DNA of 64,000 bases from Anaerolineaceae bacterium (GTDB lineage: Bacteria > Chloroflexota > Anaerolineae > Aggregatilineales > Phototrophicaceae). Positions 1-4,436 of the stretch are shown piece after piece (positions within the stretch are counted from its first letter, which is position 1; each line of letters starts with the position of its first letter). The stretch lies in assembly GCA_028818375.1 (NCBI GenBank), contig JAPPOB010000005.1, forward strand, positions 1 to 64,000, in the 5' to 3' direction. Below the pieces are notes generated by a model. The model worked only from the letters and a program-made list of their open reading frames with translations, ran no database searches and was not told the origin of the DNA. Position numbers and translations under genes: made by a program.

Positions 1-882
1 TGTCCCCTTTTTTCCCCTGTCATTGGTCGTTTGGCCGGCTCGCCAAAATGGGGGGGCCGGGGGGGGGTTGGGGGGGGGTGCCCCCCCCCCCCCGCCACCC
101 CCCCCCCCCCCCCTCACAGACAAGATGAGATTTGACCCGCCAATGCAATTGACTCTCAGGGTTCCGGTGGAGGGAATGTGAATGGCAATCAGGTAACCAA
201 GTAGCACGGTCAGACATCCGGCCCCCAGTGAAGCAAAGGCCAGAAACCTTTGCCGGAACGGGATGGCTTTCACAAGGAGGAGCAAGGCTCCGGTCACCAA
301 AACGACGGGCGCGAGATTGAAGCGGCCAAGGGTTGCGATTCCCAATACGCCACCGGCTGCACAAAGGCCGGTGGCGAGCGAGGCTCCGCTGAAATGCAGC
401 GATCTGTTCATGATCCAGATCGCCAGGACAATACAAAACGCAACCATCCAGACGGGATAATAGAGATGCGCCCATTGCAACCCGAAGACGTCCAGCAAGG
501 CAGCCAGGGCGACAATCAGGGCAACCCGTCTGGAGTGATGCCGTCGCACGGTGTCGTAAAGCAGGAAAGGGATGCAGGCGCACAGGGTCACCTGGACCAG
601 CAACAGGAAGCGTTCCTCGAAGGCGCCCAGGTGACGCGCGATGGCGGCCGCCGGCGCCATCACCAGGGCGTAACCGGTCGGGTAACGCAAATTGCCAATG
701 AGCAGATCTCCCTCCACCACCTGATTGATCAGGGAGGCGTGGAAAGCCTGTATGTCGTCAAGTTTCACCTGCAGTGGATAGCCCAGATACATCCCGCCGC
801 GGACCAGCAGGGTCAACAAAAGCAACAGGCGGATGTGCGCATGCATCCGCCTCATGACATTCGGGACCGAAAGAACGCTCAT
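1..882 (-). CDS. Membrane glycosyltransferase-like protein, partial (3' end beyond window)
   Basis: Reading on the minus strand from the ATG at 882, an open frame runs off the left edge without a stop. It starts MSVLSVPNVM and carries several hydrophobic segments separated by short basic loops, such as LLLLLTLLVRGG near residues 19-30. Residues ~36-60 (YPLQVKLDDI followed by the GNLRYPTGYA region) resemble the first periplasmic loop of GT-C glycosyltransferases. The start overlaps the stop of the upstream gene as ATGA, so the two are co-translated. Sequence after residue ~254 (below base 120) is G/P-rich translation of homopolymer runs and should not be trusted. Family assignment is by architecture only; the product could be any polytopic membrane enzyme. 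Confidence 0.6.
   Translation of the reverse strand, partial: MSVLSVPNVMRRMHAHIRLLLLLTLLVRGGMYLGYPLQVKLDDIQAFHASLINQVVEGDLLIGNLRYPTGYALVMAPAAAIARHLGAFEERFLLLVQVTLCACIPFLLYDTVRRHHSRRVALIVALAALLDVFGLQWAHLYYPVWMVAFCIVLAIWIMNRSLHFSGASLATGLCAAGGVLGIATLGRFNLAPVVLVTGALLLLVKAIPFRQRFLAFASLGAGCLTVLLGYLIAIHIPSTGTLRVNCIGGSNLILSVRGGGGGGGGGGAPPPNPPPAPPFWRAGQTTNDRGKKGT
51..115. other. G/C homopolymer block, probable assembly artefact
   Basis: A run of poly-G tracts (51-78) is followed by poly-C tracts (81-112), broken only by single T, A or G bases. It lies inside the frame of the partial membrane-protein gene and turns its predicted protein into glycine/proline runs. Nothing else in the window has this composition. 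Together with the gene cut-off at base 1 it suggests a low-quality contig end. Confidence 0.65.
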
Positions 883-2399: not shown

Positions 2400-3759
2400 G
2401 CGTCGGGTGACCCCGCGTGCCAGGGCAATAGCAGGCGATGGTAGCGGCCTGGCGCAGCTGGTGCCAATGATCTTTCTGCTGGCCCTGCTACTGCGTCTGG
2501 CGGCAGTCTTCGGCGAGCAGCATGACATCGGCTACGTCAGCGATGGCGGAGACAGCCCCTGGTATCTGGCGCACGGCTACGCCCTGGTCACCGGCTTCGA
2601 CGAGGGTCGACTCCCGGGATTCGCCATCGATGAACACCCTGAGGGCATGGTCATTTCCCTGCGCGGGCTGACGACGCCGCCGCTCTTCCTGCTCTTCATC
2701 GGTGTGCCGCAGGCCCTGCTCCCGCGCGAGGCCGCGATACTGCTCCTGCGGCTCATGCAGGCCCTCGTGGGTACCCTGTCGGTCTGGCTGGTCTGGCGCC
2801 TGGCGCGCGCCGTCGCGGGGAACGAACGCGCCGCCTTCATCGCCGCGCTGGCCATCGCCATCTCGCCGGCCTTCATTGTCGAAGTCACCCGCGTCACCAG
2901 CGAATCACTTTACGTTTTCCTGCTGCTCGCTGCCCTGGCGCACCACAGCCATCGACGCGAGCAGGTCACCGTAACCGGAGTGCTGCTCGGCCTGGCGACG
3001 CTGACGCGGGCTGTTCTGTTGCTTTTCCCCCTTGCTCTGGCCCTGCACCTGCTCATGGTCGATGGCCGCCGCCGCGGCCTGCGCCGGGCGCTGCTGCTGC
3101 TGGCAGTTTACAGCCTCGTCGTCGGCAGCTGGACGGTCTACAGCCTGGCGCGCTGGGACCGTTTTGTCATCGCCGGCGAGGGCGCAGCGGCCTTTCTTTA
3201 CATCGGCGCGTTGGAACAGGGCTGGCGTGGACCGCAGGAGACGGACAGGCAACTGATTGAGGACACCGGAGCCTTGCCTGAAGAACCCCTTGCCCGTCAG
3301 GCCAGCTACCTGCAAGGCGCGCAGCAGCGAATCGCAGCTGACCCCGCCGGCTACCTGCTGCGCCGCCTGCAGGAACTGGCGGACGCCGCCCTGCAACCCC
3401 ACGGAACAGCTTACATCGATGGCCCACCGCTGCGTCTCATGGCACAGGAGTGGTGGCGCGAAGGCCGCTCACCCTCTGAAGTGCTGCGGTGGATCACTTC
3501 AGAGGGCTTCTGGCCCCGGCTGTTGATCTACGTCCTTCATTTCGTCGGCCTGTCGGCAGGGCTGGCCGGCATCTGGCTCAGCCGCCGGCGCTGGCGCCGG
3601 ACCCTGCCCCTGGCCGCGTGCATCGCCTACACCCTGTCGCTGCATCTGGCGCTGCTCGCCAACCCCCGCTACCTGTTTCCGATACTGCCCCTGTGCCAGG
3701 TCTTTGCCGGCATCGCGCTCCAGCAGACCTGGGAGAAACTGAAGGCATCGCGGACGTGA
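2398..3759 (+). CDS. GT-C / PMT-like membrane glycosyltransferase
   Basis: Up to 453 aa from the ATG at 2398; a shorter start at 2467 (MIFLLALLLRL) fits the usual N-terminal helix equally well. After the first helix comes VSDGGDSPWYLAHGYAL, an acidic periplasmic loop like that of PMT/ArnT-type transferases, followed by multiple hydrophobic helices and a short cytoplasmic C-terminus. It is divergent from a similar gene on the other strand, and with the 2398 start the two start codons share two base pairs, leaving no separate promoter space. Its TGA stop overlaps the GTG start of the MerB-like gene (GTGA), so it heads that overlapping chain. Donor and acceptor cannot be read from the sequence. 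Confidence 0.7.
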   Translation: MRRVTPRARAIAGDGSGLAQLVPMIFLLALLLRLAAVFGEQHDIGYVSDGGDSPWYLAHGYALVTGFDEGRLPGFAIDEHPEGMVISLRGLTTPPLFLLFIGVPQALLPREAAILLLRLMQALVGTLSVWLVWRLARAVAGNERAAFIAALAIAISPAFIVEVTRVTSESLYVFLLLAALAHHSHRREQVTVTGVLLGLATLTRAVLLLFPLALALHLLMVDGRRRGLRRALLLLAVYSLVVGSWTVYSLARWDRFVIAGEGAAAFLYIGALEQGWRGPQETDRQLIEDTGALPEEPLARQASYLQGAQQRIAADPAGYLLRRLQELADAALQPHGTAYIDGPPLRLMAQEWWREGRSPSEVLRWITSEGFWPRLLIYVLHFVGLSAGLAGIWLSRRRWRRTLPLAACIAYTLSLHLALLANPRYLFPILPLCQVFAGIALQQTWEKLKASRT

Positions 3760-4436
3760 GCCAGGACAACCCGCTTGACGTGGACCAGGCCTTGCGCCTG
3801 CACATTTACCGCTTCTGGTGCGAACAGGGACGGCCGCCCACGGTAGCGGAAAATGCGCGCGCCTGCGGTCTGTCCGATGCTGCCGCGCTGGCCGCCTGGG
3901 GCCGCCTGCACGACGCCCACCTTATTCTGCTGGAGGCCGACGGCGAACGCATCCGTATGGCCAACCCCCTGTCAGCCCTGCCCACCGATTTCCGTGTGCG
4001 GGTCGGCCGGCACTGGGTGTTCGCCAATTGCGCCTGGGACGCGCCGGGCATTCCCGCCATGCTGCAGCAGGACGCCGTCATCGAGGCGCGCTGCAGCCCG
4101 CGCGGCGAACGCTTGCGCTTCAGCGTGCGCGCCGGCGAGCTGCTGGCGGAAGAAGCGCTGGTGCATTTCGCCCTGCCCTTCCGTCAGTGGTACGACGACC
4201 TGGTGGAGACCTGAGCGACCATCCTGCTCTTCCGGTCGGAGGAGGACATTGACGACTGGTGTGAGCAGCGTGGCCGGGTCCGCGGCGCCGTGCTGACCCT
4301 GCAGCACACCTGGGAGCTGGCGCAGGCCTGGTACCACAACCGTATGTCAACGACGTTTAAAGGTCGCAGCCCTGCCCAGGCGCAGGAACTGTTTGCATCT
4401 CTCGCTTTGCGAGGTCCCTTCTGGGAGATGCCATGA
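3756..4436 (+). CDS. MerB-like organomercurial lyase, probable selenoprotein (Sec153 encoded by TGA)
   Basis: 226 aa if TGA 4212-4214 is read as selenocysteine, from the GTG at 3756 that overlaps the previous stop. Known family: MerB splits carbon-mercury bonds using Cys96, Asp99 and Cys159. Seen here: N-terminal helical region, then NCAWDAPGIP with C92 and D95 matching C96/D99, C113 matching C117, and U153 in ETUATILLF matching C159. Spacings are 61 and 40 residues against 63 and 42 in the plasmid enzyme. After TGA the frame stays open for 73 codons with family-like sequence (EEDIDDWCEQRG, WELAQAWYHNR) and ends at 4434-4436, overlapping the next ATG. A SECIS-like hairpin follows the TGA. Alternative: a Cys codon miscalled or mutated to TGA, giving a truncated 152-aa protein. 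Confidence 0.82.
4212..4247 (+). promoter_or_regulatory. Candidate bacterial SECIS element after the in-frame UGA
   Basis: Bases 4227-4233 (CTCTTCC) pair with 4238-4244 (GGAGGAG) in seven consecutive pairs, one of them a T-G wobble, closing the tetraloop GGTC at 4234-4237. The loop lies 20-23 nt after the UGA. Bacterial SECIS hairpins sit immediately downstream of UGA with a G among the first loop bases, and the E. coli fdhF element (from memory) has GGUC at almost the same distance. SelB recognition is inferred, not shown. Confidence 0.72.

Follow-up and report, generated by a model that had tools for sequence, protein, structure and literature searches.

The DNA analysed here, called the window, is a stretch of 64,000 nucleotides from contig JAPPOB010000005.1 of an Anaerolineaceae bacterium (assembly GCA_028818375.1, phylum Chloroflexota), and it carries a gene of the organomercurial lyase family MerB that is interrupted by an in-frame TGA. 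We read this TGA as a predicted selenocysteine (Sec) codon that is followed by a predicted Sec insertion sequence (SECIS) hairpin. The features of the gene are as follows.

3756..4436, + strand: MerB-family gene with internal TGA, a predicted selenoprotein of 226 residues; GTG start at 3756, stop TGA at 4434-4436
4212..4214, + strand: in-frame TGA, predicted Sec codon, residue 153, in the column of MerB Cys159
4029..4031, + strand: codon of C92, in the column of MerB Cys96
4038..4040, + strand: codon of D95, in the column of MerB Asp99
4092..4094, + strand: codon of C113, candidate equivalent of MerB Cys117 on the basis of spacing only
4227..4244, + strand: predicted SECIS hairpin, stem 4227-4233/4238-4244, loop GGUC at 4234-4237, 19 nt past the UGA

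The in-frame TGA in the window gene and its relatives

The TGA at 4212-4214 is the single internal stop in the frame that opens at the GTG at 3756. The original prediction had aligned this TGA with the catalytic Cys159 of MerB, had seen the other two catalytic residues kept at matching spacing, and had described a family-like frame that stays open to an ATGA junction with the next gene. All three observations hold: a phmmer comparison with solved MerB chains pairs residue 153 with the catalytic Cys; C92 and D95 (and also C113) match Cys96 and Asp99 (and Cys117) by spacing; and 73 codons free of further internal stops lead from the TGA to the stop at 4434-4436, where the next gene begins in overlap with an ATG at 4433. 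The residue immediately ahead of the predicted Sec153 is a Thr.

Relatives were collected from two genome samples, one of 200 genomes that includes the genome of the window (G000) and one of 400 genomes of the phylum Chloroflexota. The first sample gave 51 matches in 49 genomes, 38 of which (39-100% identity) contain exactly one TGA and no TAA or TAG, with the TGA in the same column in each. The TGA at the Cys159 column, where Sec or Cys was to be looked for in relatives, is thus a family trait, and a lone nonsense mutation is rejected by these 38 one-TGA matches. The search covered two further genomes of the genus, G001 and G002; both carry the same TGA as the window gene, which argues against a sequencing error. 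Two other matches exceed 39% identity, namely a decayed piece in G087 (46%) and a weak 55-residue piece in G062 (42%), each with two TGA and one TAA. The 400-genome sample contained MerB in 59 genomes with 72 matches: one TGA was found in 18, two TGA in 7, a TAG in 1, a TAA in 1 and no stop in 45, and in two of these stop-free matches (G551 and G576) the catalytic column lies just beyond the matched stretch and holds a TGA.

HMM matches across all loci numbered 174, and 103 genes were kept for comparisons, 64 with TGA at column 159 and 39 with Cys. Copies from named records (L032-L041), sequences contained in another, pieces below 500 nt (including the decayed G087 copy, L130, L135 and L136) and a single Cys gene from each of L092, L122 and L128 were left out. 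The residue set C-D-U occurs in 55 of the 64 Sec genes. A tree of 85 of the 103 rows (18 near-copies of one genus omitted), built by a quick method with no bootstrap and with long branches meeting at the L064/L067/L074 group, needs two changes for Sec at column 96 and seven for Sec at column 159. The Cys159-column TGA was also seen in L149 (G263) and in L076 and L172 (G576 and G551), in MerB groups far from the window clade, and these TGA codons are probably separate Cys-to-Sec changes. A further MerB-like form, C-C-C, with the motif NCAWC...YTCSTMLLF, no TGA and Cys at the Asp99 column, was seen in L087, L088 and L089 (G053, G057 and G103).

Of 1927 database relatives, the best 120 are mostly 144-181 residues long and 117 of them end just before the Cys159 column; the remaining three have W (P0022) or Cys (two) there. 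These records were read as proteins only, and the 117 short ones presumably end at a TGA. Annotation likely mistakes genes of the window type for cut-short proteins. An Anaerolineae bacterium and one of the Vicinamibacterales are among the sources named for these 120, and the type therefore probably extends beyond Chloroflexota. The Rubrobacter radiotolerans plasmid NZ_CP007515.1 (L182:4926-5420) carries a MerB of this clade that appears in the annotation as a merB of 90 residues. The TGA stands at its catalytic column, and past the TGA its frame is broken.

SECIS hairpin, selection and Sec machinery

The window hairpin, CUCUUCC-GGUC-GGAGGAG, has a stem of 7 bp, a 4-nt loop, a spacing of 19 nt past the UGA and an energy of -11 kcal/mol. 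GGUC also occurs in the loop of the E. coli fdhF SECIS. All of these values lie within the bacterial SECIS limits given in the available part of a review (PMC13188914), i.e., a 3-9 nt loop with G in its first two positions, a stem of 4-16 bp, a spacing of 16-37 nt and an energy of -7.5 kcal/mol or lower. GGTC stands at +22 in 54 of the 64 Sec genes vs 1 of the 39 Cys genes, and the codons that spell it are skewed: Arg is CGG in 53 of 60 cases (21% in the rest of these genes), and Ser is TCG in 51 of 55 (29% in the rest). In a branch with Trp for Arg, the sequence becomes UGGUCA, where the loop is retained and the closing pair changes from C-G to U-A. L084 and some genes of genus g18 have CGUGA in place of the GGUC loop, again with G then U.

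When qualifying hairpins were compared with codon-preserving shuffles, they followed 52 of the 64 Sec codons (shuffled 25%) vs 3 of the 39 Cys159 codons (12%). After Cys96 codons they were found in 2 of 56 genes with Cys96 and Sec159 (shuffled 11%) and in 3 of the 39 Cys genes (10%). Across 54 hairpins (50 distinct), 89.1% of cells are paired, and pairing falls to 43-61% once the partner is slid; two-sided changes occur in 13 cells vs a shuffled mean of 2.7, with none of 500 shuffles as high.

The frame downstream of the TGA is under purifying protein selection. For nine pairs of Sec genes, dN/dS was 0.20-0.51 upstream of the TGA and 0.15-0.48 downstream, and in one Cys gene pair it was 0.22 before and 0.41 after the Cys codon.

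The Sec machinery genes selA, selB, selC (tRNA-Sec) and selD, which were to be sought in the same genome, are all present in the genome of the window (3.04 Mb, 12 contigs, 96.75% complete): selA scored 540 bits, selB 348 bits, tRNA-Sec 74 bits with an ARAGORN call of tRNA-SeC(tca), and SelD 363 bits (G000:C7:624133-625068, L181). The SelD gene itself has one in-frame TGA, in AGUASKCG, and therefore this genome holds at least one further predicted selenoprotein. The Sec assignment at the Cys159 column is thus supported by conservation, the SECIS hairpin, purifying selection past the TGA and a complete Sec machinery. In the contrast covering 55 of the 59 MerB-positive phylum genomes plus G054 (the weak matches G206, G277, G361 and G467 were excluded), selA was over its cut-off in 24 of 24 TGA-MerB genomes vs 26 of 32 Cys-only genomes; this association is weak because selA is common in the phylum. 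selD was over its cut-off in 29 of the 30 TGA-MerB genomes tested, the exception being G348 (85% complete). In the Cys clade of family f57 (G219, G237 and G280), which in the quick tree sits beside the single-Sec clade within the larger Sec-bearing branch, neither selA nor selD is over the cut-off. Among the carriers of the all-Cys C-C-C form, G103 lacks selA, and G053 and G057 have it.

Two-Sec forms and the relation to MerB and SaoL

TGA occurs at both column 96 and column 159 in 8 of the 103 genes, with Asp or Glu at column 99. These genes (L064, L067, L074, L075, L091, L137, L139 and L140) fall on two separate branches; G209, G525, G583, G543 and G054 carry one each, and G331 carries three copies. 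A qualifying hairpin follows the first TGA in 8 of 8 (shuffles 41%), vs the 2 of 56 at the Cys96 codon of genes with Cys96 and Sec159, and the second TGA in 7 of 8. For a structural model of the L074 form (pLDDT 93.7), all 11 hits at E<=0.001 are MerB/MerB2. No two-Sec MerB was found among the open-licence papers listed in the literature searches, nor in the parts of PMC9312934 and PMC13188914 that were available, and the catalogue in the available part of the latter review gives one MerB-like selenoprotein with one Sec. The searched main texts of deep-Sep (PMC12013277) and Peng 2016 (PMC5029168) contain no MerB or mercury, and the search of GOS 2008 (PMC2398784) gave mercuric transport proteins without MerB.

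Two side observations concern these forms. In G270 (contig C110, L156), a MerB-like frame with two TGA codons, VPUAID ... GGGURDNTLLRSEAHL, resembles a ninth two-Sec form; only the SaoL model found it, and it stands outside all counts. In G209 (L138:2346-5645), genes for an ECF-type transporter (ATPase, CbiQ-like and substrate components) have the two-Sec MerB gene just downstream.

The window protein shares the MerB fold. With Cys placed at residue 153, it scored 99.9 bits against Pfam MerB (PF03243; gathering cut-off 27), which places it in the superfamily, and its C92 and D95 correspond to Cys96 and Asp99 of MerB/MerB2. It is 18-24% identical to the MerB/MerB2 crystal structures (PDB 3f0o and 5c17) over 179-190 residues. 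On the two NCBIfam MerB models it stays below the cut-off, with 46.7 of 193 bits and 39.9 of 200. The residue set Cys96/Asp99/Cys159/Cys117 is incomplete in it, where the Cys, the Asp and the Cys117 equivalent are present and the Cys159 column is occupied by the TGA, a predicted Sec. In addition, unlike MerB/MerB2, the gene has no mer operon, and its genome has no MerA over the cut-off.

SaoL is described in the available part of PMC13188914 as a MerB-like selenoprotein of the Sec-assisted organometal (SAO) system with the motif CU. The original prediction had left open whether the window protein belongs to SaoL or is separate, and this question is partly answered: the protein reaches 39.7 bits on the SaoL model (NF040728) vs a cut-off of 140, by which SaoL membership is rejected, and it has Thr ahead of Sec where SaoL, according to that source, has Cys. 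None of the 400 phylum genomes exceeded the SaoL cut-off. A search with the six Cys proteins nearest to SaoL returned no protein named SaoL among the best 120 of 164, all 120 being C-D-C. The window gene stands alone, with none of the SAO partners seen; the model of the partner SaoB matched 0 of 30 genomes, a result that proves little as the model rang nowhere, controls included. The SaoL model, of 159 positions, matched L068 to position 157, about 2 residues before the catalytic Cys by hand count, and so the Sec of SaoL probably lies in the same column as Sec153. The catalogued alkylmercury lyase MerB-like selenoprotein WP_238493467.1 (PMC9312934, PMC13188914, both available in part) is likewise a MerB-family selenoprotein, given as SaoL with one Sec in the accessible text of the 2026 review (PMC13188914). 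Sec in the Cys159 column is therefore probably an already known kind, with SaoL in print, and the novelty lies in a clade that is separate and stands alone and in the forms with two Sec.

Proposed function, competing explanations and neighbourhood

We consider it probable that the window gene encodes a predicted MerB-fold selenoenzyme, with the UGA at 4212-4214 read as Sec, that cleaves C-Hg or similar carbon-metal bonds by selenolate/thiolate-assisted protonolysis. SelB with Sec-tRNA(Sec), whose genes are present, would recognise the GGUC-loop hairpin and insert Sec153. Judging from residue identity and fold, C92 and Sec153 would hold R-Hg+ between them in the way that Cys96 and Cys159 do in MerB, and D95 would relay the proton as in MerB, releasing R-H. 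The Hg(II) left on the Se-Hg bond would presumably pass to cellular thiols or dithiols, because the genome has no MerA over the cut-off, and the neighbours suggest a stand-alone detoxification or scavenging gene outside any mer operon. A selenolate would bind Hg more tightly. According to the available part of a computational study (PMC4525700), MerB already gives up its Hg to thiols with difficulty and with the help of Asp99, and the price of selenium may thus be release rather than attack.

If the TGA were a true stop, the product would be a truncated protein of 152 residues or the gene would be decaying. The 117 database relatives that end just before the column, among the best 120 of 1927, and the truly decayed G087 copy fit such a stop, but the dN/dS of 0.15-0.48 past the TGA, the 38 matches with one TGA and no other stop, and the SECIS signature make it very improbable. 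Decoding of the UGA as Trp, Gly or Cys through a changed code or a suppressor could appeal to the W that one source has here in P0022; it is even harder to credit, since TGA terminates three of the four window genes checked, tRNA-Sec(tca), selA, selB and selD are present, and a SECIS hairpin follows the codon. That the window protein is SaoL itself is scarcely more probable than that, in spite of the shared MerB-like selenoprotein character and the probably common Sec column, given the score far below the cut-off, the Thr ahead of Sec and the empty search of the 400 phylum genomes, to which the SaoB result adds little.

A different alternative keeps the Sec decoding identical and changes the chemistry alone: the protein would be a tight binder of a soft metal or an organometal with no turnover, as a scavenger, chaperone or sensor, or would act on organotin, organolead or organoarsenic. 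Se-Hg bonds should hinder product release. Thiol removal of Hg is already demanding for MerB (PMC4525700, available in part). Neither a MerA over the cut-off nor mer neighbours were recognised. The single-Sec clade nevertheless retains C92 and D95 with Sec153, i.e., the full lyase set, and we regard this alternative as unlikely, yet worth serious attention.

Several observations weigh against the selenoenzyme lyase that we prefer. Taken by itself, the window hairpin does not exceed dinucleotide shuffles in stability (90 of 200 were as good; z -0.07), and Rfam gave no match at the gathering score. The hairpin test is failed by 12 of the 64 Sec genes and passed by 3 of the 39 Cys genes. Of the five covariation measures, two exceed shuffles barely or not at all (330 of 500 shuffles for further pair types; 30 of 500 for pairs with two-sided changes), 23 of 50 hairpins do not form the outermost pair, and F159 and S161, which flank the loop, are conserved at the protein level too. 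The presence of selA in 26 of 32 Cys-only genomes points the same way. On the side of function, no mercury (mer) genes were recognised beside the window gene, the best MerA match in its genome reached 323 of 454 bits, and 24 of the 28 TGA-MerB genomes examined have no MerA over the cut-off, with one in the other 4. Because MerA is mostly missing and no mercury genes adjoin, homology is the sole tie of the window gene to mercury.

On a wider scale, we tentatively suggest that, outside the SAO system, selenium organometal lyases form a large class that has been overlooked, in which Sec replaces one or, in two branches, both of the Hg-coordinating MerB cysteines, each UGA having its own SECIS. 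Such genes would have no mer operon and mostly no MerA, would be annotated as fragments of ~150 residues, and would be lost from demethylation surveys that demand Cys159. As given in the available parts of the sources, Christakis 2021 screens MerB by Cys96, Asp99, Cys159 and Cys117 (PMC8261052), and a 2026 ocean survey drops every MerB without these four residues (PMC12874090). If the suggestion is true, an unknown share of microbial breakdown of methylmercury or other organometals is carried out by selenoenzymes that are invisible to current inventories, because the surveys demand these residues. The natural series Cys-Cys, Cys-Sec and Sec-Sec, whose acid position holds Asp, Glu or Cys, also allows one to ask why selenium is used in a non-redox metal enzyme when slower product release is to be expected from a Se-Hg bond.

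The window gene lies in the order GT-C glycosyltransferase, MerB, AlkZ-like and TsaD, neighbours by which a mer operon is rejected. Among 54 loci, the largest neighbour cluster covers 16, and the clustered neighbours of the window gene are common only to loci of its own genus. Apart from this gene, the very start of contig C11 (window 50-115) shows extended G runs and C runs, probably an assembly artefact of the contig end. In genus g18 (L096, L106, L079 and others), the Sec-type MerB gene follows the genes of ribosomal protein S2 and EF-Ts and precedes that of an amino-acid kinase, probably pyrH; up to 14 of the 54 loci have this order, and some of them are copies of one genome. This is an odd setting for a mercury gene, and it looks like constitutive detoxification or scavenging.
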